Source: Chelatococcus sp. HY11
Lineage (GTDB): Bacteria; Pseudomonadota; Alphaproteobacteria; Rhizobiales; Beijerinckiaceae
Assembly (NCBI RefSeq): GCF_018398335.1
Contig: NZ_JAHBRX010000001.1
Span: forward strand, 4,270,001 to 4,334,000
Reading direction: 5' to 3'
DNA length: 64,000 nucleotides
The notes under the pieces are model-generated. The model made no database searches. It had not been told where the DNA came from and was given only the letters and a program-made list of their open reading frames with translations. Numbering within the stretch: position 1 is the first letter of the stretch; the number at the start of each line of letters is the position of its first letter. A program made the translations under genes and the position numbers. Below are positions 7,444 through 55,234 of this stretch, piece after piece.

Positions 7444-7794
7444 TCAGGCGGCGTTCGCTGCCTTCACACCATCGGCCACCCACCGCCACTGACCGCACTC
7501 AAGGCCCCACCGCGCGATGATGTCCGCCCGAGCCCGCCGCTCGGTCAGGTCGTTCGGCAGGCGGTGTGTTGCCTCCTCCTGCACTGCTGCCAGCATGAAG
7601 CTCAGGCGCTCGACCTCGAACCCGAGAAGGTCCTCCACCGCCCCGCTCGACGTGGCGCAGTGAACCGCCAGCACGTCCTTGGCCGTGTTGATGGCGAGAT
7701 AGAGGGCGGACAGCCGGGTCATCTCCACCCCGGACAGATCCACGTCCAGGATCGTCGCGTCCGGTGTCGTTTCGGTCAGGGAGAGGCCCGTCAT
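7444..7794 (-). CDS. Unknown phage protein
   Basis: The 116-residue product starts MTGLSLTETTPD and contains helical segments (LSALYLAINTAKDVLAVH, LSFMLAAVQEEA). I recognise no domain. The ATG at 7794 overlaps the stop of the upstream gene by four bases, so it is probably translated by coupling; a longer frame upstream is basic and out of character. It is the last gene of the left-end operon. Confidence 0.6.
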   Translation of the reverse strand: MTGLSLTETTPDATILDVDLSGVEMTRLSALYLAINTAKDVLAVHCATSSGAVEDLLGFEVERLSFMLAAVQEEATHRLPNDLTERRARADIIARWGLECGQWRWVADGVKAANAA

Positions 7795-8036
7795 GCGGCA
7801 CCTCCCGTCTTGGCGATGGCGTTCTTGACGATCTCGCCTTCGATCGTCTTTTCGAGGGACTGCCACCAGCGATCTTCAACCGCGCTATCGAAGTCGCACC
7901 AAGCATCGATGATCACGCCATCGGGCACGCCTGGGAAAGCGGCTTCGGCCGCCTTCCACACGTCTTCACCTTTCTCGTGGGCCTGCTCCATCACTTGGAT
8001 GATCTGAGCGCGGACCTGTTTCCGGATGTCGTTCAA
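7791..8036 (-). CDS. Unknown small phage protein
   Basis: The 81-residue protein is charged and helical (RKQVRAQIIQVMEQAHEKGE, EDRWWQSLEKTIEGEIVK). No family is recognised. It overlaps both neighbours by four bases in a tightly packed minus-strand operon downstream of the antirepressor-like gene, so it belongs to that transcription unit. Confidence 0.6.
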   Translation of the reverse strand: MNDIRKQVRAQIIQVMEQAHEKGEDVWKAAEAAFPGVPDGVIIDAWCDFDSAVEDRWWQSLEKTIEGEIVKNAIAKTGGAA

Positions 8037-8347
8037 AGCTGACCTCCCGTCCCGGGCAACCGCCGGATAGCCGTCTGGAGGCGGCGCTTGGCGTTGTACG
8101 TCTCGCGCTTCGCCCGCTCCACAGCGTCATACTGCTGTTCGGTGAAACCCTTCATCGCCTCCCATTCGGGCGTGTTGAAGTCGACGTGCGGGACGCTGTG
8201 CGCCTCCTTCCACACCCGATAGCCGTCATGGAGATCCTGGACCCGGCACTTCTGATCGAACTCGCAACGCTCGAGCTCAACGGCCCGGCGAGCGATCTCG
8301 ATCATCAGCGGCAGATGCTGTGTCATGGTGAGAATGTCGGCCTTCAT
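8033..8347 (-). CDS. Unknown small phage protein
   Basis: The 104-residue product is helical and charged (LPLMIEIARRAVELERCEF, DAVERAKRETYNAKRRLQTA). No conserved domain is recognised. Its ATG overlaps the stop of the antirepressor-like gene by four bases, implying translational coupling. Confidence 0.6.
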   Translation of the reverse strand: MKADILTMTQHLPLMIEIARRAVELERCEFDQKCRVQDLHDGYRVWKEAHSVPHVDFNTPEWEAMKGFTEQQYDAVERAKRETYNAKRRLQTAIRRLPGTGGQL

Positions 8348-9276
8348 GCCGCACCTCCTTCAAAGCTGGTAGCCGGGGCACGGAACTGGATGACCTTCTG
8401 GTCGACCGGCAGCGAGGCCTTGGCGCGGCGCTCTGTCCGTCCGGCCACATAGGACCGGACCAGCTCAGCACCGAGGCTCGCGCCGAACAGAAATTCCTGC
8501 GCTTTCTCCCGAGGGAAGCGCCAGGGCTGGCTACGGTTGACATGGGCCGGTGTGCGCCAGCATCCGACCTTGGCCGTGAACTTCAGCATCTCACGGGTGA
8601 TGAACTGCGTCGTACCGCGGAACCGGCCTTTGACCTGGACCAGATCGAGCATGTCCGCCGCCGTCACCGTCGATGTCATGTCCACGGTCGGATGCATATC
8701 CTCGCGGCGCTGGGCATCCTGCACGGCCTTGGCGATGATCGGGGCGATCTCGTCGCGAAGCACCACGCCCGTGCACTGCTTGATCATGTTCCCGATGACG
8801 CGCTTGACCTCCTTGTCGAGCATCGTGACCGCCACTTCCGAACGCACAGGCGCGACCGCCTGATTGAAGTAGCTGTCCTCCAACTTCTCGAACACCTCCC
8901 ACGCCATGTCCGTGTCGAGCAGCTTCGCGTGCCGGGCGGCACCACGTTCTGTCCACAAGATGAGGCTGGGGGCGTTCTTTCCAACTAACCCACTCACAGT
9001 GGGTGAGTTCTTGAATTTCTTTAATTTTGAATGGGTTAGCTTGATATAGTGCGTGCCCTCAATGAACCGCTCTTCATTCCGGTCATGGTTCATCTGGATA
9101 TTATGGCCGACCGTGCCGTACACCTTGGCGAGCAGCTCGGTGGTGATAACGCGCCTGCCTTCGTACGCGACGACGGGGAGGTCTTCGACCGCACCTTCAT
9201 GCACCGCTGGCAAGCCGGGCGGCAAAGTCACCACTTCCCCATCATGGGGATTATGCGTATAAACATCATCAACCAT
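8344..9276 (-). CDS. ORF6N-domain protein, putative phage antirepressor
   Basis: The 310-residue protein has an N-terminal ORF6N-type DNA-binding domain at about residues 30-125 (VVAYEGRRVITTELLAKVYG, then RFIEGTHYIKLT and LILWTERGAARHAKLLDTD). A charged C-terminal region follows. The ATG at 9276 has AAGGAG six bases upstream and is preferred to the long in-frame extension. ORF6N proteins in phages often act as antirepressors that relieve lysogenic repression. It follows a ribbon-helix-helix gene, overlapping it by eight bases, as ant follows arc in P22. The antirepressor role is inference. Confidence 0.75.
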   Translation of the reverse strand: MVDDVYTHNPHDGEVVTLPPGLPAVHEGAVEDLPVVAYEGRRVITTELLAKVYGTVGHNIQMNHDRNEERFIEGTHYIKLTHSKLKKFKNSPTVSGLVGKNAPSLILWTERGAARHAKLLDTDMAWEVFEKLEDSYFNQAVAPVRSEVAVTMLDKEVKRVIGNMIKQCTGVVLRDEIAPIIAKAVQDAQRREDMHPTVDMTSTVTAADMLDLVQVKGRFRGTTQFITREMLKFTAKVGCWRTPAHVNRSQPWRFPREKAQEFLFGASLGAELVRSYVAGRTERRAKASLPVDQKVIQFRAPATSFEGGAA

Positions 9277-9526
9277 TAGAGGCTCCTTCACAGCCTTGGT
9301 GGTTACGGGGGCCGCCTGCAAGAGGCGGTTTCGTTTCAGCGACGACGGAGCGGCTTTCCACGGCATGTGCTCCGTCGTCGTTCTTCATGCGATCCAGCTT
9401 CTCCCTGATAGCTCGGACGATCTCGCTGTTCTGCGAGGATCCATTTCGCTTGGCTTCACGCATCATGAAGCGCTTAAGGTCGGTGGGGAGGCGAAGCATC
9501 AGTCTCGGCCAATTTGCTTGGCTCAT
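9269..9526 (-). CDS. Arc-like ribbon-helix-helix repressor
   Basis: The 85-residue protein starts MSQANWPRLMLRLPTDLKRF, with the beta-strand (RLMLRLP) and two helices (TDLKRFMMREAKRNG, SSQNSEIVRAIREKLDR) of the Arc/Mnt family. AGGAG precedes the ATG at 9526. It is divergent from a second ribbon-helix-helix gene and separated from it by three related palindromes. It probably represses itself and the downstream antirepressor-like gene, as Arc does in P22; the target is inferred. Confidence 0.8.
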   Translation of the reverse strand: MSQANWPRLMLRLPTDLKRFMMREAKRNGSSQNSEIVRAIREKLDRMKNDDGAHAVESRSVVAETKPPLAGGPRNHQGCEGASNG

Positions 9527-9541
9527 CGGATCTCCTAGTGA

Positions 9542-9611
9542 CACCAAAATGGTGGGTTAACCATACACTCCACCATTATGGTGTCAAGCTTCACATGACA
9601 CCATTTCGGTG
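9542..9611. promoter_or_regulatory. Three operators between divergent ribbon-helix-helix genes
   Basis: Three 13-bp palindromes share CACCA-N3-YGGTG: 9542-9554 (spacer AAA), 9571-9583 (spacer TTA) and 9599-9611 (spacer TTT, right arm CGGTG). Their centres are 29 and 28 bp apart. The first abuts the Shine-Dalgarno of the minus gene and the third ends 13 bp before the plus gene ATG. Their position and symmetry fit operators for one or both of the flanking Arc/Mnt-like proteins. Confidence 0.75.
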
Positions 9612-9623
9612 GTATCCACAGCC

Positions 9624-9986
9624 ATGGCCAAGCAAGATGACTACATCCGGATCACCCTCAGGCTTCCGCAGGACGTGCATCGGCGGCTCATCGAAGCCGC
9701 GGGTCCGCGATCGCTAAACGCGGAGATCGTCACACGTCTCCAGAACACGCTGGATCTAGATGAAGGCCTCTCCTCTGATCCCTCGCCCGGCTACGAACAT
9801 ATGGAAGAGCCCCCTCCATATCCCCCTATCCCTCAATCGCTGTTGGACGAGTATTCCTTGCGCGCCGACCACGAAAGGCTGGATCGCCTCAAAGAGGCAA
9901 TTGAGTGGATTATCTCGCTTGCCGAACAGCAAATCGGGCGTACCCACAGTAAGGTCAAGAAACCGAAGCCCCGAAGCGGGGAATAA
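9624..9986 (+). CDS. Mnt/Arc-like ribbon-helix-helix repressor
   Basis: The 120-residue product starts MAKQDDYIRITLRLPQDVH, with the family strand-helix-helix pattern (DYIRITLRLP, QDVHRRLIEAAG, SLNAEIVTRLQNTLDL). A Pro-rich linker and a C-terminal amphipathic helix (LDRLKEAIEWIISLAEQQ), possibly for oligomerisation, follow. There is no clear Shine-Dalgarno before the ATG at 9624; an in-frame GTG lies at 9609 inside the third operator. Its stop codon lies inside the loop of the first stem-loop of the array downstream. It is the likely partner of the divergent repressor. Confidence 0.8.
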   Translation: MAKQDDYIRITLRLPQDVHRRLIEAAGPRSLNAEIVTRLQNTLDLDEGLSSDPSPGYEHMEEPPPYPPIPQSLLDEYSLRADHERLDRLKEAIEWIISLAEQQIGRTHSKVKKPKPRSGE

Positions 9987-10437
9987 CCGCTTCGGGACGG
10001 TCGGCCGCTCATCCTCGGAAAATCTGAGGTTGCATTCCCGGAAATACTTGGATTGCCGGGGGCCAGCACAAACCGGGAATTCTCCGGTTTGACCTCAATA
10101 TGGGATTCTCCCACATTGCCAGCCCCCCACATGACCCGGTCTAAAGTACGTTTTGCGTACTTTAGAAGCTCGACGGAATGCGTCGGGGTTTGCCCCACGG
10201 TGGCAAGAACTCTGATTTCGTTGGCGATTTCGGCTTAACCTGTCCAACAGGCAGGTTTTGAGAAGGCGTCACGACGGTCGTGATACCTTGAGGAGAGGTG
10301 CCCTCAAATCTGAGGAGACCACCGCGACATCGAACGATCTTCGTTCGATGACATCCGACGAAATTCGTCGGAGGTGGCGACAATTCGTCGAGGCCCTAAA
10401 ACGTCAAAAGCCGCCCGGTCCCGAAGGACAGGGCGGC
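9970..10437 (+). ncRNA. Candidate structured RNA: dense array of about fifteen stem-loops
   Basis: Stem-loops read by eye (stem, loop): 9970-9996 (10 bp, 7 nt holding the stop codon of the upstream gene); 10013-10029 (7 bp with one G-U, 3 nt); 10037-10060 (5+3 bp); 10069-10091 (8 bp, 7 nt); 10096-10118 (4+4 bp around one mismatch, 5 nt); 10140-10166 (11 bp perfect, 5 nt); 10171-10185 (5 bp); 10185-10196 (4 bp); 10237-10257 (6 bp); 10269-10283 (6 bp, 3 nt); 10288-10307 (6 bp); 10328-10350 (10 bp perfect, 3 nt); 10354-10372 (8 bp perfect, 3 nt); 10378-10390 (4 bp); 10410-10437 (7+4 bp across a G-A mismatch, CGAA loop). No credible coding frame spans it. It lies between convergent genes and is followed by a plus-strand terminator, so the plus strand is the likely RNA. 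Function unknown. Confidence 0.6.
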
Positions 10438-10488
10438 GCGACATTCCGACGTAGCTATGTTATAAAGAGGCGTCTGCAGTTTGGACCT

Positions 10489-10893
10489 TCAGCCCGCTCC
10501 GCGCGTCGGTGCGGGTTTTTTCTTTGACCGGATCACGGCTTCCAGGCGCTTCAGGATCGCCGAGGCCTTCCCCGGCACCGGCCTGTCATCCACAAGGTTT
10601 CCTGTCTCCATCGCATCGAGGATGATCGCGCAACAGGCTATGGCGTGCCCGAGGTGGTGCGCGCCGCTGTCGTCGGCGGTGTCCTCGCCGTCCAGGTAGT
10701 CGAGCAGATGTCTCTGTGCTGCGGCAATGTAGACGCGTGTCCTGACCTTCTTCTCACGCCAGTTGTACGGGTCATATTTGTCGGCGCCGTCCATCATGGC
10801 ATGCGCGCCATGGATCAAGCCGGCAGCCGGGAACAGCGACAGGTCGACCCTGCACGAGCCGGCCCGGTCCTTCGGGTTGGTGTCGTCGGTCAT
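10489..10893 (-). CDS. dATP/dGTP diphosphohydrolase-like protein (DUF5664)
   Basis: The 134-residue protein begins MTDDTNPKDRAGSCRVDL and carries the family segments GLIHGAHAMMDGADKYDPYN, AAQRHLLDYLDGE and a histidine-containing HHLGHAIACCAIILDA, consistent with an all-alpha metal-dependent nucleotide pyrophosphohydrolase fold. Phage members are thought to adjust dNTP pools or modified bases. The ATG at 10893 overlaps the upstream phosphoesterase stop by four bases. Activity is inferred from family resemblance. Confidence 0.7.
   Translation of the reverse strand: MTDDTNPKDRAGSCRVDLSLFPAAGLIHGAHAMMDGADKYDPYNWREKKVRTRVYIAAAQRHLLDYLDGEDTADDSGAHHLGHAIACCAIILDAMETGNLVDDRPVPGKASAILKRLEAVIRSKKKPAPTRGAG
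10493..10521 (+). terminator. Intrinsic terminator after the stem-loop array
   Basis: On the plus strand CCCGC (10493-10497) pairs with GCGGG (10511-10515), with an inner CCG/CGG pairing, followed by six T (10516-10521). It lies within the 3' end of the convergent minus-strand gene and would end transcripts coming from the ribbon-helix-helix gene and the array. Confidence 0.75.
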
Positions 10894-12711: not shown

Positions 12712-13040
12712 CAGCGCACCCCTCGGATACGGCGGACAACATCGTCAGGCAGGGCTGGCGCGTCGTTCGCCGGGGTCGCCTCGATCGCGGCGCGGTTGGT
12801 CTCCTCGATGCTGTCCTGAGCGTCTTTCAGCTGCGCATCGGCGGCATCGGCCCTCGCGATCGCCGCGTTGCGCTCGATGACGAGTTCAGCCTGACGGGCG
12901 CGCCATACGGCCCGCTCTGTCGCCACGCCGTCGTGATAGCGCAATGCGCCATAGCCCCAGATGCCGCCGGCCGCGAGGATCGCCAGCACGAGATAGATCG
13001 CGATCGGGGGCACGCCGATGGCCGAAGCGACAGCGTTCAT
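12711..13040 (-). CDS. Probable inner spanin (Rz-like)
   Basis: The 109-residue protein has one N-terminal transmembrane segment (IAIYLVLAILAAGGIWGYGA) followed by a long Ala-rich coiled coil (RAVWRARQAELVIERNAAI to DSIEETNRAA). That topology fits i-spanins. The ATG at 13040 overlaps the endolysin stop by four bases, and the downstream lipoprotein gene follows directly. Confidence 0.7.
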   Translation of the reverse strand: MNAVASAIGVPPIAIYLVLAILAAGGIWGYGALRYHDGVATERAVWRARQAELVIERNAAIARADAADAQLKDAQDSIEETNRAAIEATPANDAPALPDDVVRRIRGVR

Positions 13041-13549
13041 TTCAGGCTCTCCAGGCACAGCTCCAGCTCACCCATGCGAGCCGCGTCGCCGTATTCGCGC
13101 CGGTTCTTCAGACCGGCGATCACCTTGCCGCCGGCCCGGTTGAACCAGGTCATGGCATGACAGGAGCCCCGGAAATCGCCGGCCCGCGCGCGCTTGGCTG
13201 CCGTCGATGAGCAAGCCGCACCGACGCCGATGTTGTAGGTTTCATCCAGCATCGCGCCCTGCCAGCCGAGCGGGGCATCGTCGAAGCCGGGGATGCAGCG
13301 GGCGAGCGGCTTGTGGAAGTCGTTCTCCAGCCGAGACAGGAGCATCGCCTTGCACTCGGCGTCGGTCTTCACCATGCCGGGCTTCACGTTGAGCGTTTCG
13401 CCCGTGCAGATGGTCCAGACGCCTCCGAGCCTATCCCAATAGGCGGTGTTGACGGTGCCTTCCCACGGCTCGGTCAGGTAGGTTGCCGTCATGGCGATGA
13501 GGCCAAGCGCGGCCCCCGCTGCCAGGGCCTTGCGGGCACGAGCGCTCAT
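13037..13549 (-). CDS. Endolysin: GH24 phage lysozyme with N-terminal membrane anchor
   Basis: The 170-residue protein carries the T4-lysozyme-type triad in EPWEG (Glu30), YWDRLGG (Asp39) and VWTICTG (Thr46). The first 25 residues are a hydrophobic Ala/Gly-rich segment like a signal-anchor-release domain. It would hydrolyse peptidoglycan in the periplasm during lysis. The ATG at 13549 lies just inside the holin stop; the longer upstream frame is basic read-through of the holin region. Confidence 0.92.
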   Translation of the reverse strand: MSARARKALAAGAALGLIAMTATYLTEPWEGTVNTAYWDRLGGVWTICTGETLNVKPGMVKTDAECKAMLLSRLENDFHKPLARCIPGFDDAPLGWQGAMLDETYNIGVGAACSSTAAKRARAGDFRGSCHAMTWFNRAGGKVIAGLKNRREYGDAARMGELELCLESLK

Positions 13550-13770
13550 TGTTTCTCTCCCGACACGGAATTTTGCGCGACGATGCGCGCGACGAAGGCG
13601 CCGCAAACGGTCAGCGCGCACAGGCTGGCGAACACGCCGCGATGGATGGGCAGGATCTCTTGCAGGAGCGGAAGCGCGACCTCGGCACCGGACAGAGCGC
13701 CGGCGAGGATCAGCAGGCGGATGCTCCAGGCGTAGCGCAGGACCTCTCGCCAGTTGGGGACGAGCCTCAC
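13546..13770 (-). CDS. Holin-like membrane protein
   Basis: The 74-residue protein has two hydrophobic stretches (SIRLLILAGALSGAEVALPL and GVFASLCALTVCGAFVARIV) with a charged C-terminus. The N-terminal MRLVPNWREVLRYAWS resembles a phage holin family. It starts with GTG at 13770, overlapping the stop of a tiny lipoprotein gene, and is immediately followed by the endolysin, the classical holin-endolysin order. Confidence 0.75.
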   Translation of the reverse strand: MRLVPNWREVLRYAWSIRLLILAGALSGAEVALPLLQEILPIHRGVFASLCALTVCGAFVARIVAQNSVSGEKQ

Positions 13771-13892
13771 CGGTCTTCGCCTTCAACGACGTATTTCGTG
13801 CCGTAAGCGACACCAGCCCAATAGTTGCCCTCGCGAGACGCACAAGCGCTCAAGGCCGCGGCGACGAGCACCACGATCAGCAGCAGTTTCAT
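13767..13892 (-). CDS. Tiny lipoprotein (41 aa)
   Basis: The frame encodes 41 residues starting MKLLLIVVLVAAALSACASR. The LSAC lipobox gives a mature lipoprotein of about 25 residues. It overlaps the holin GTG by three bases. Such small lipoproteins occur in lysis cassettes; an alternative outer-spanin or entericidin-like role is possible. Confidence 0.6.
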   Translation of the reverse strand: MKLLLIVVLVAAALSACASREGNYWAGVAYGTKYVVEGEDR

Positions 13893-49637: not shown

Positions 49638-50780
49638 TCAGCCGATCAACTTGCTTTCAACATTCTGGAGTACCGCGCGATCCTCGTCCAGGGTTGAGAT
49701 CGCATAAGCGTATATTTGCATCGTCGTCGAGATATTGGCGTGCCCTAGCATTCTCTGCAATGCTTTCACGTCCATTCCCTCGCGCGCCAGGAGCGCTGCC
49801 GCGGAATGGCGGAGCGCGTGCAGCCCAAATTTGCCCTTCGCGACCTTGATCGGGTTCCCGTCCTTGTCCTCTCCGTCGACATATCGAACGACACGCGCGA
49901 GGACCTGTACGGGGCCTATCACGCGATTCGTCCAGTTGGCCAAGCTCTCTACCTTGCCCGCGCCGGTCGGGAAAACGAGATCGTCGTCCTTCTTGAAGGT
50001 GCTCCGCATCTTGTGCTCACGGAGCAAGGCGACAACCCCCGGCGTCAACGGGATGTCCCGAATTGCGGCAGCGGTCTTGGGAGCCCCTATAGCGTTGTAT
50101 CGGTCGGCACGCTGGCGAATGTGCATCGCTCCGGCCTTCAGATCCACATCTTGCCAGCGAAGGCCGCGCAGCTCCGAAGCTCGGGCGCCGCTGAATAGGG
50201 CCGTGAAGATGAGGGCCCTGTGCGCCTCTGGAGCCACCTTGAGAATCGCTTTCAGCTCCGCTTGCGTCGGCCACTGCTTGGCTTCCTGGCCGCGTCGGGT
50301 TGAAGAGAGCTTCACCTCGCGCACGGGATTATAAGCGATCAACCCGCGCCGGGCGGCTTCGCTCACAATTGCTCCCAAGCTCGCGAGGATCTTCTTTTGC
50401 AGGGCAAGCGATCGGCCTTCGCGGAGGTTGTCGGCAAAGGAGTGCACCCCGGGGATTGTGAGCTTCGCGAGCTTGGTGCCACCGATCAGCGGCTTTATGT
50501 GAAGGTCAACGTGCTGCCGGTATTGTGCGGTTGTGGATGCCTCCAGGCCTTTCCGTTCGGCACGCTCAAGCCAGAGATCAGCTACCTCGCTGATCGTCAG
50601 GGAATCGCTTTCCGCGACGTGTAGCCCGAGTTGTACCTCCCGCTTTGCCTTCGTGAGCCAGGCGTCGGCGTCCTTTCGGCGATCGAACTGCTTCGCTCGC
50701 CTCTTGCCGCCAACGTCTCGGTAGTCTGCCAGCCAGCGGATTTCACCGCTGGGCAGGGTTCGCTTTCGGATTGTTGCCAT
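49638..50780 (-). CDS. int: Tyrosine recombinase (integrase of element B)
   Basis: The 380-residue protein has an N-terminal Arm-binding-type region, a SAM-like core-binding domain and a catalytic domain with Arg200 (SGARASELRGL), Lys235 (PKTAAAIRDIPL), His321-x-x-Arg324 (HALRH), His347 (LGHANI) and Tyr357 (MQIYAY). All expected residues are present. Its stop lies 60 bp from the tRNA fragment, the expected int-att order. Confidence 0.94.
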   Translation of the reverse strand: MATIRKRTLPSGEIRWLADYRDVGGKRRAKQFDRRKDADAWLTKAKREVQLGLHVAESDSLTISEVADLWLERAERKGLEASTTAQYRQHVDLHIKPLIGGTKLAKLTIPGVHSFADNLREGRSLALQKKILASLGAIVSEAARRGLIAYNPVREVKLSSTRRGQEAKQWPTQAELKAILKVAPEAHRALIFTALFSGARASELRGLRWQDVDLKAGAMHIRQRADRYNAIGAPKTAAAIRDIPLTPGVVALLREHKMRSTFKKDDDLVFPTGAGKVESLANWTNRVIGPVQVLARVVRYVDGEDKDGNPIKVAKGKFGLHALRHSAAALLAREGMDVKALQRMLGHANISTTMQIYAYAISTLDEDRAVLQNVESKLIG

Positions 50781-53918: not shown

Positions 53919-54034
53919 CGCAGGTGGTATCAAATAATCGACAAGCGTAAATCAGGTGATGTCGGGCATATTTGCTTGACGAATGGAAAGATGGTACCGG
54001 ATTTATTCAGCGAATCAGGCTGGATTTAATTTCA

Positions 54035-55234
54035 GTGAAATGGTTTTGGCAGAAAAATAGACCGAACGAGCAGCGATCGCTTGCGACGCCGTCTCCTTTG
54101 CTGCTCGAAATATTCGGCTCCAAGCCGACCGCCGCAGGAGTGTCCGTCTCTGCCACGACAGCCTTGCGCAGCCCGACCACGCTCGCGGCCTGCCGTGCTA
54201 TTTCTGAATCGGTCGGATCTCTGCCATTTCACCTATTCCGTCGCGGCAACAGCGGAGCCCGAGAGCGAGACACGGATCATCCTGCTGCCGCGCTTCTGGC
54301 TGGCGATTGGTGCCCGTGGGCCGGCGGCGTTGAGACGCGCACCGCGCTCCAGCTCGACGGGCTTCTCCATGGCGCAGGCTATGCGCTTGTCATCCGCGTG
54401 AATGGACAGCCACGCGAGCTTCACCGGCTCATCCCTACCAGCGTGACCCGAGACACCACAGGGCCGGAGCCGCGCTTCCGCGTGCAGGACGGCAGCGTAG
54501 AGAAAATCTACCGTTGGCAGGATATCCTCTACCTGCCGACCCCTGGCAGCGCCGATGGCCGGCTCGTTTGCCTGATCGATCTCTGTCGCGAGGCCATCGC
54601 GCTTGATCTGGTGATGGCGGAACACCAAGCGCGCATCTTTGCGAACGGTGGCAGGCCGTCAGGTATTCTGAGCTTGCCCGGCAGTCTCGCCGGGGCTGCT
54701 GTTGAGCGCATTAGAAAGTCCTGGAAAAAGGCCTTCGGCGGGGAGCGTAGCGGCGACACAGCGGTTCTAGAGGCTGGGATCGACTTTAAGCCGCTCACAT
54801 TCAGCAGCGTCGATCTCCAGTTCATTGATCTGCGCCGGCTAGCCGTTCAAGAGATCGCCCGCGCCTTCAAGGTGCCGGGCACCCTGATTGGCGATCTCGA
54901 CCGCGCGACCTGGCGCAACGTCGAAGAGCTGATGCGCCAGTACATTCAGACCTGCCTGATGCCTTGGACAGAGATTTGGCAGTCGGCCTTGGAGCGCGCG
55001 CTTCTGACGCAGGAAGAACGCAGCGAGCTCTTCGTCGAGGCCGTCTTTGACGACATGTTGCGCGGCGACCTTGCAGCCCGCTTTACGGCCTATCGGCAGG
55101 CCAGCGGCGGGAGCTGGCTGACGCCGAACGAAATTCGCAGCTTCGACAATCGCCCGCCTATCGCTGGCGGCGATGAACTGATCCGGCAAGCCGGACAGGG
55201 CGGCGCGACCGAGCCGGAAGGAGCCGCAGCATGA
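54035..55234 (+). CDS. Portal protein of element B, HK97 family
   Basis: About 399 residues from GTG 54035 (MKWFWQKNRPNEQRS). Family segments: TTLAACRAISESVGSLPFHL, LLHGAGYALVIRVNGQPREL, IFANGGRPSGILSLPG and RRLAVQEIARAFKVPGTLIG. Distinct from the element A portal. It heads the head module. Confidence 0.9.
   Translation: MKWFWQKNRPNEQRSLATPSPLLLEIFGSKPTAAGVSVSATTALRSPTTLAACRAISESVGSLPFHLFRRGNSGARERDTDHPAAALLAGDWCPWAGGVETRTALQLDGLLHGAGYALVIRVNGQPRELHRLIPTSVTRDTTGPEPRFRVQDGSVEKIYRWQDILYLPTPGSADGRLVCLIDLCREAIALDLVMAEHQARIFANGGRPSGILSLPGSLAGAAVERIRKSWKKAFGGERSGDTAVLEAGIDFKPLTFSSVDLQFIDLRRLAVQEIARAFKVPGTLIGDLDRATWRNVEELMRQYIQTCLMPWTEIWQSALERALLTQEERSELFVEAVFDDMLRGDLAARFTAYRQASGGSWLTPNEIRSFDNRPPIAGGDELIRQAGQGGATEPEGAAA

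Follow-up and report, generated by a model that had tools for sequence, protein, structure and literature searches.

What kind of element is the dense run of hairpins that lies between two convergent genes in a prophage of Chelatococcus sp. HY11? A preliminary description had read the 468 bp at 9970-10437 as about fifteen different stem-loops, possibly a structured phage RNA, and the locus raises the question of whether these hairpins are real and whether they belong to an RNA, to a set of protein-binding sites or to the DNA itself. Positions refer to the window, the whole stretch of 64,000 nucleotides that was analysed. The prophage looks intact in outline, with an integrase gene (49638-50780) and genes for terminase, portal, tape measure and tail fibre, and an endolysin gene (13037-13843) and an Rz-like gene belong to the same prophage as the array. 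A second phage portal gene (53972-55234), on the opposite strand and beyond the integrase, perhaps belongs to another prophage or to a gene-transfer-agent-like cluster. The immunity region holds two divergent regulator genes and an ORF6N antirepressor gene (PF10543), and the features around the array are:

8344-9366, minus strand: ORF6N antirepressor gene, with the palindrome ACCCACTGTGAGTGGGT in loop codons at 8988-9004
9269-9547, minus strand: divergent Arc-like gene (Arc-like PHROGs; Pfam Arc 19.9 bits, cut-off 20.4)
9624-9986, plus strand: likely ribbon-helix-helix regulator gene (start codon chosen by eye)
10489-10893, minus strand: dATP/dGTP diphosphohydrolase gene (PF18909), the convergent neighbour of the array
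10498-10515, plus strand: intrinsic-terminator-like site closing the region (terminator scan)

A Pfam search with the 9624-9986 product gave nothing at E ≤ 0.001, and it is from the four PHROGs that its gene has in common with the divergent gene (795, 1287, 2685 and 1388) that we infer its ribbon-helix-helix nature and a role as repressor. Between the two divergent regulators, at 9539-9612, lie three related inverted-repeat arms of the TGACACCA..TGGTGTCA type (CACC...GGTG), which are likely operators. The array fills the convergent gap, from the stop codon of the rightward regulator gene to the terminators of the convergent genes, so the setting given in the preliminary description holds, including the plus-strand terminator after the array; the stop codon at which the array was said to begin falls within the first hairpin's loop, and the gene's repressor role, there taken as given, is putative.

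Counted against 500 dinucleotide-preserving shuffles, 9970-10437 contains 8 stems of at least 6 bp (shuffles: mean 0.77, maximum 4) and 5 of at least 8 bp (mean 0.06, maximum 2), and none of the 500 matched the observed number. When the 64-kb window was scanned in 20-bp steps and scored by stem base pairs, this stretch ranked first among all those of 468 bp, with 65 stem bp as against 35 for the best elsewhere and a median of 6. A mechanical search of 9965-10440 returned 11 perfect stems of at least 5 bp. The imperfect hairpins (10013-10029, 10096-10118, 10263-10289, 10378-10390 and 10410-10437, found by eye or in the inverted-repeat listing) and the alternative stem at 10302-10315 raise the total to about 15, in agreement with the number first proposed, and all five hairpins that had been spelled out were recovered with the same positions and stem and loop sizes. 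Folded as RNA, 9965-10530 reaches -258.1 kcal/mol on the plus strand (z = -9.1) and -256.1 kcal/mol on the minus strand (z = -8.2), and on each strand 0 of 100 shuffles folded as well, which settles in the affirmative the earlier expectation that the real sequence folds better than dinucleotide shuffles. The dense stems and the low folding energy on either strand indicate that the array is real and nearly strand-symmetric.

The palindromes are mostly 13-27 nt long, their arms are all different, and some are centred on ACGAANTTCGT or something near it. Odd lengths prevail: 10 of the 11 perfect palindromes (at least 5 bp) are odd, as against 321 of 585 in the remainder of the window. The array has no repeated common sequence at constant spacing, since the arms differ and the centre is common to some units only, and the earlier statement that the stems differ and form no iteron is therefore upheld. 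No sigma-70-type promoter-like site was found within the array. The frame at 10258-10527, open in the window, is closed early in the related genomes G001 and G002 (by eye), which supports the earlier statement that the region lacks coding content.

A search of 100 related genomes gave matches at E ≤ 0.001 in five, including the window's own (6.95 Mb). Four arrays are found in all, namely that of the window, that of a related prophage in G002 and those of prophage remnants in G001 (Chelatococcus asaccharovorans DSM 6462) and G003, the last three being shorter than the window's; in Camelimonas lactis DSM 22958 (G026) two to three related hairpins lie where open reading frames converge. In the window, the array is composed of about 14 short DNA palindromes closed by a minus-strand terminator:

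9970-9996: palindrome 1, 10 bp with a 7-nt loop, terminator-like when read on the minus strand
10013-10029: palindrome 2, CCTCGGAAAATCTGAGG, 7 bp with one G-T on the plus strand (by eye, in agreement with the plus-strand fold)
10069-10091: palindrome 3, CAAACCGG GAATTCT CCGGTTTG
10096-10118: palindrome 4, CAATATGGGATTCTCCCACATTG, 10 bp with one A-C on the plus strand (by eye), perfect core at 10101-10113
10140-10166: palindrome 5, TCTAAAGTACG TTTTG CGTACTTTAGA, 11 bp with a 5-nt loop
10171-10185: palindrome 6, CGACG GAATG CGTCG
10190-10206: palindrome 7, TTGCC CCACGGT GGCAA, containing one end of an 82-bp unit missing from G002
10237-10257: palindrome 8, AACCTG / CAGGTT
10263-10289: palindrome 9, perfect core at 10269-10283
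10288-10315: alternative stems, TTGAGG/CCTCAA (10288-10307) or CCTCA AATC TGAGG (10302-10315; by eye), mutually exclusive
10328-10350: palindrome 10, CATCGAACGA TCT TCGTTCGATG, 10 bp with a 3-nt loop; centre ACGAACTTCGT in G001 and G002
10351-10375: palindrome 11, ACATCCGACGAAATTCGTCGGAGGT, centre ACGAAATTCGT; Camelimonas lactis has a similar palindrome
10378-10390: palindrome 12, CGACAATTCGTCG; CGACGAATTTCGTCG in G002
10410-10437, minus strand: terminator-like hairpin of the convergent gene, GCCGCCC..GGGCGGC then TTTT

The list of hairpins first drawn up thus stands with two corrections, the exclusive alternatives at 10288-10315 and the nature of the last element. On the minus strand 10410-10437 is a GCCGCCC stem followed by TTTTGACGTTTT, which a stricter terminator scan missed, and its outer 7 pairs are kept in all four array sequences.

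The G002 prophage has the same diphosphohydrolase gene, followed by its shorter array, which reaches the stop codon of an HTH_3-type regulator gene. In the remnants of G001 and G003 a homologue of the 7444-7866 region is fused to part of the array. The remnants (L003 860-1620 and L004 920-1600) adjoin a tRNA gene that appears by eye to be the same one in both Chelatococcus genomes. The units themselves come and go. In the pairwise comparison the BLAST homology between window and G002 stops at palindrome 5; the 82-bp unit at 10202-10283 is present in the window and absent from G002; the match to G001 starts at 10327, one base ahead of palindrome 10; and no homologue of palindromes 1-4 was found in the related-genome and pairwise searches. 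These boundaries suggest that the array changes by whole hairpins and that exchanges or deletions end at or near them; the junction role draws on these three BLAST boundaries, which were assessed by eye. In the G002 version of palindrome 5 (GCTAAAGTACG AAATT CGTACTTTAGA) only the outermost pair is altered while 4 of 5 loop bases differ.

A family-wide DNA search gave matches at E ≤ 0.01 in 29 of 298 genomes. Outside G000-G003 and G026, 11 loci from the other 24 genomes were viewed and have the appearance of coding sequence or single terminators. In the phage databases 9900-10600 had no DNA match, and the right part matched at E ≤ 10 over no more than 32 bases, always at the terminator end. The window's own genome has one array; its 17 other matches at E ≤ 10 cover at most 51 query bases (one was viewed), and near-identical dispersed copies, as in REP/REPIN repeats, were not found there.

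The diphosphohydrolase gene is present in 8 viral contigs and, within the 298 family genomes, in 8, which include that of the window and G002. The 700 bases 3' of it hold 9 stems of at least 6 bp (72 stem bp) in the window and 0-4 stems (0-32 stem bp) in the 8 viral contigs and 6 other genomes. A general tie between array and gene was thus rejected, as other relatives of the gene have no comparable array 3' of them.

Compared with G002, the window differs at 7 of 108 positions in stems and at 24 of 80 in loops or spacers (Fisher p = 2e-5), which supports constraint on the stems. The stems for these counts were defined on window and G002. The right block, which takes in the terminator, has 4/76 stem against 11/47 loop or spacer changes, the left block 3/32 against 13/33, and the other five right-block pairs point in the same direction, from 4/76 against 18/50 through 10/61 against 17/39. 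Compensatory change among homologues, to which the preliminary description had looked for a decision, is barely present: among the four sequences one of 38 pairs, in G003, has changed on both sides, and 126 of 500 shuffles scored as high. The four arrays contain few wobble pairs, and these favour neither strand clearly: 2 G-U would form on the plus strand and 5 on the minus. The change counts indicate that the stem sequence is conserved; the data neither demonstrate RNA covariation nor pick a strand.

It is against this evidence that the main rival has to be weighed, a plus-strand structured 3' UTR or stand-alone RNA that would run from the regulator gene through the hairpins to 10498-10515 and stabilise the repressor message or act as a regulatory RNA. 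In its favour are the very low folding energy of the plus strand, the position of the array 3' of a regulator gene in both window and G002, the plus-strand terminator at its end, the conserved stems, and two G-U pairs in palindrome 6 of G002 that suit the plus strand. Yet the minus strand folds about equally and the wobble direction is mixed, the single compensatory change does not rise above shuffles, and in the G001 and G003 remnants the array part adjoins another gene. Rfam, at the gathering score, gave 0 matches in the 64 kb, and the earlier failure to name an RNA family is confirmed. A covariance model (R1) run over 347 genomes of the order matched in 13, one match being the window's own array, and the 13 loci viewed from the other 12 look like ordinary terminators or coding sequence, so that no further array was found by the model in those 347 genomes; G001-G003 are not among the R1 matches listed, and the same model detects their arrays in extracted loci. 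We consider this rival somewhat unlikely. An RNA function is not needed to explain the data, though any read-through transcript would fold, and the proposal of a single structured RNA, sponge or decoy is not supported, given that the strands fold equally, that wobble is mixed and that the longest palindrome (TCTAAAGTACG) occurs in only 2 of 298 family genomes, both times inside arrays. The last observation also led to the rejection of this palindrome as a decoy for a host operator.

Two further explanations treat the array as DNA. The palindromes could be neutral by-products, perfected by template switching during replication and tolerated in an unconstrained convergent gap between terminators. 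In agreement with such an origin, the arms are perfect but unrelated in sequence, most centres are odd and several loops measure 3 nt; the gain and loss of units and the absent covariation signal agree with it as well. The lower rate of change in stems than in loops and spacers speaks against it, as does the fact that an equal density is found nowhere else in the 64 kb, and a common centre with unlike arms would not be expected; a neutral origin is accordingly improbable. If the palindromes were instead binding sites, whether operators or decoys, for dimeric DNA-binding regulators of one or several kinds, this would account for the half-site ACGAA common to some of them, and in several other viral contigs ACGAANTTCGT pairs flank promoter-like sites in a manner that is operator-like by eye. 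A protein site, however, does not need arms that differ and yet remain complementary, the array has no promoter-like site of its own, its longest palindrome is confined to arrays among the 298 family genomes, and the operator-like repeats at 9539-9612 differ in sequence from its palindromes. Binding sites are in our judgement a highly improbable explanation.

The reading that we prefer, at a probability of roughly 40%, is that hairpin-forming DNA palindromes are clustered here, with units coming and going, at a boundary where repressor modules are exchanged. The palindromes would act, or arise, as DNA hairpins or cruciforms; their units would multiply by duplication, the arms drifting while staying complementary; and the array would mark a junction at which repressor modules are swapped and strand exchange or deletions end. 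The minus-strand terminator at the right edge would be a separate, ordinary part. On this account the array may tentatively be seen as the border that separates the repressor module of the prophage from its late/lysis genes. Against the preferred reading it must be said that stem conservation is equally expected of RNA or of protein-binding sites.

How far the palindromes form one class depends on their centre. In the window the exact ACGAANTTCGT centre is found in palindrome 11 only, palindromes 10 and 12 are near it, and most others are without it. The exact sequence occurs once in the window's array, three times in that of G002 and twice in that of G001, and whole genomes (~7 Mb) contain 6-10 copies each; the reversed pattern, used as control, has 1-2 copies per genome, which marks the 11-mer as a somewhat common sequence in its own right. 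Among 16 ACGAANTTCGT loci viewed, the longest palindrome measures 25 bp, in the G002 array, followed by 19 bp in the window array and at L229. Of two scans of genome contigs the first gave no match and the second, made with a pattern, gave 13 stretches, of which 8 were scored for hairpins and 3 viewed. An odd length with a fixed centre (CGAANTTCG) and complementary but differing arms is seen in palindrome 11 and in several palindromes of G002, G001 and Camelimonas, and is lacking in most window palindromes.

In viral contigs, two ACGAANTTCGT within 34 bases were found in 18 cases, all viewed, and at least 8 resemble repressor operators by eye. At L137, L139, L140, L143, L146 and L147 such pairs flank or overlap promoter-like sites (by eye). 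Pairs placed around promoter-like sites in this way are probably repressor operators and not arrays. At L110 (1181-1235) two long adjacent palindromes lie directly 3' of a KilA-N gene, a small independent array in another phage. TCNGACGANNTTCGTCNGA was found in 48 viral contigs, which by estimate is about the number expected by chance, and the raw count thus carries no meaning. The same centre with another arm of equal composition occurred in 0 contigs, against 7 for the arm encoding SDEIRR; this indicates that the SDEIRR-encoding arm is common and leaves the centre itself untouched. The evidence was therefore restricted to arm extension past the pattern and to ORF6N loci fetched by protein similarity.

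The latter loci, the best 80 of 246 relatives, were collected by protein similarity and not by palindrome; the seed alignment was built from four palindrome-bearing ORF6N genes, a possible bias. The 79 loops with a usable anchor fall into 34 clusters, and L155, which was left out, has a 7-bp palindrome. A loop palindrome of at least 8 bp is present in 14 of 34 clusters, as against a mean of 0.55 and a maximum of 3 in 200 codon-position-preserving shuffles, and absent from the other 20. With terminators removed, palindromes occur at 3.66 per kb in the loop and 0.30 outside it. Those from the cluster list are 17-33 bp long with unlike arms. For the 20 clusters with a CGAANTTCG centre, 109 of 140 cells at distances 5-11 hold complementary arm bases, whereas 2000 permutations gave a mean of 61.7 and a maximum of 79; complementarity fades beyond distance 15, and over distances 5-15 the mismatches (15 G-T, 12 A-C) show no strand bias. 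The palindrome core is read in all three codon phases of ORF6N genes, as DEIRR, RRNSSD or TNFV. Where the frame reads ExR, the Arg codon varies at its silent third base along with the codon before it: CGG accompanies TCC in 2 of 2 rows and CGT accompanies AC-ending codons in 25 of 26, among 28 rows that are partly redundant. The three phases and the silent-base pattern argue for a feature of the nucleic acid and not of the protein alone.

Palindromes with a fixed centre and variable arms are seen within ORF6N reading frames of unrelated phages at L072, L111, L142, L152, L154, L161, L197 and others, and L111, L142 and L152 have two per loop and so form small arrays. The loop of L175 contains AAAGTACG/CGTACTTT, the inner arms of the window's palindrome 5. 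The window's own ORF6N palindrome is 7 bp long and lacks the CGAANTTCG centre. A relative of its ORF6N protein is present in 107 phage records, three of which were examined for loop palindromes: the matching loop of Azospirillum phage Cd has ACTGACCCTCTCTGGGAGGGTCAGT and that of Gifsy-1 has ACCCGAAACAATCGGGT (6 bp), and an Acinetobacter phage relative has only a 7-bp palindrome, further on than the matching loop. The window's own genome is the only one of 298 in the family with an ORF6N match, and a scan of the viral contigs with the window's ORF6N protein gave no match. The G002 prophage, which has an array, carries a Rha/KilAC antirepressor gene in place of an ORF6N gene, so array and ORF6N are not strictly coupled. 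The palindromes within ORF6N reading frames are possibly of more interest than the array itself.

Among known systems, intrinsic (Rho-independent) terminators resemble 10410-10437 (minus) and 10498-10515 (plus), both hairpins with T tails, and palindrome 1 is terminator-like on the minus strand; the terminator scan did not call the other hairpins of the array, whose number far exceeds what termination needs. REP, BIME and REPIN sequences are short, intergenic, clustered palindromic repeats whose units are gained and lost, all of which applies to the array, but its stems differ from one another, its genome holds no second array, and the centre alone is common, and that to some units only. Rickettsia palindromic elements occur also inside reading frames, as do the ORF6N loop palindromes; the latter, unlike them, are 17-33 bp long with unlike arms and bound to one gene family. 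Csr/Rsm-type RNA sponges have serial stem-loops, and the array likewise has many in succession, without a recurring loop motif or a clear strand preference; GGA lies wholly in the loop in 1 of its 11 perfect palindromes (by eye). The array thus matches no described family, and clustered short palindromes are already known as a kind. A literature search, from which subscription papers were mostly absent, found neither a description of ORF6N-gene palindromes nor one of comparable arrays. In the one paper found to contain both 'ORF6N' and 'palindrom', PMC6591296, the second term refers to CRISPR alone.

A bolder reading, which we regard as a long shot, would make both sets of palindromes an undescribed class of phage DNA palindrome with a fixed centre and drifting complementary arms, located in ORF6N loops and in arrays next to repressor genes. 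Copying from one palindrome to another on a hairpin template would then diversify the antirepressor loop, and the array would be a silent stock and a recombination boundary of the immunity module. The ORF6N case is open to synonymous recoding, because there the palindrome lies inside a reading frame, and the signature of arms that are complementary yet different lends itself to searches of any phage genome. Should the palindromes form a single class, they would offer a DNA mechanism for two long-standing observations, the exchange of phage immunity modules at sharp boundaries and the variable loop of antirepressor domains.
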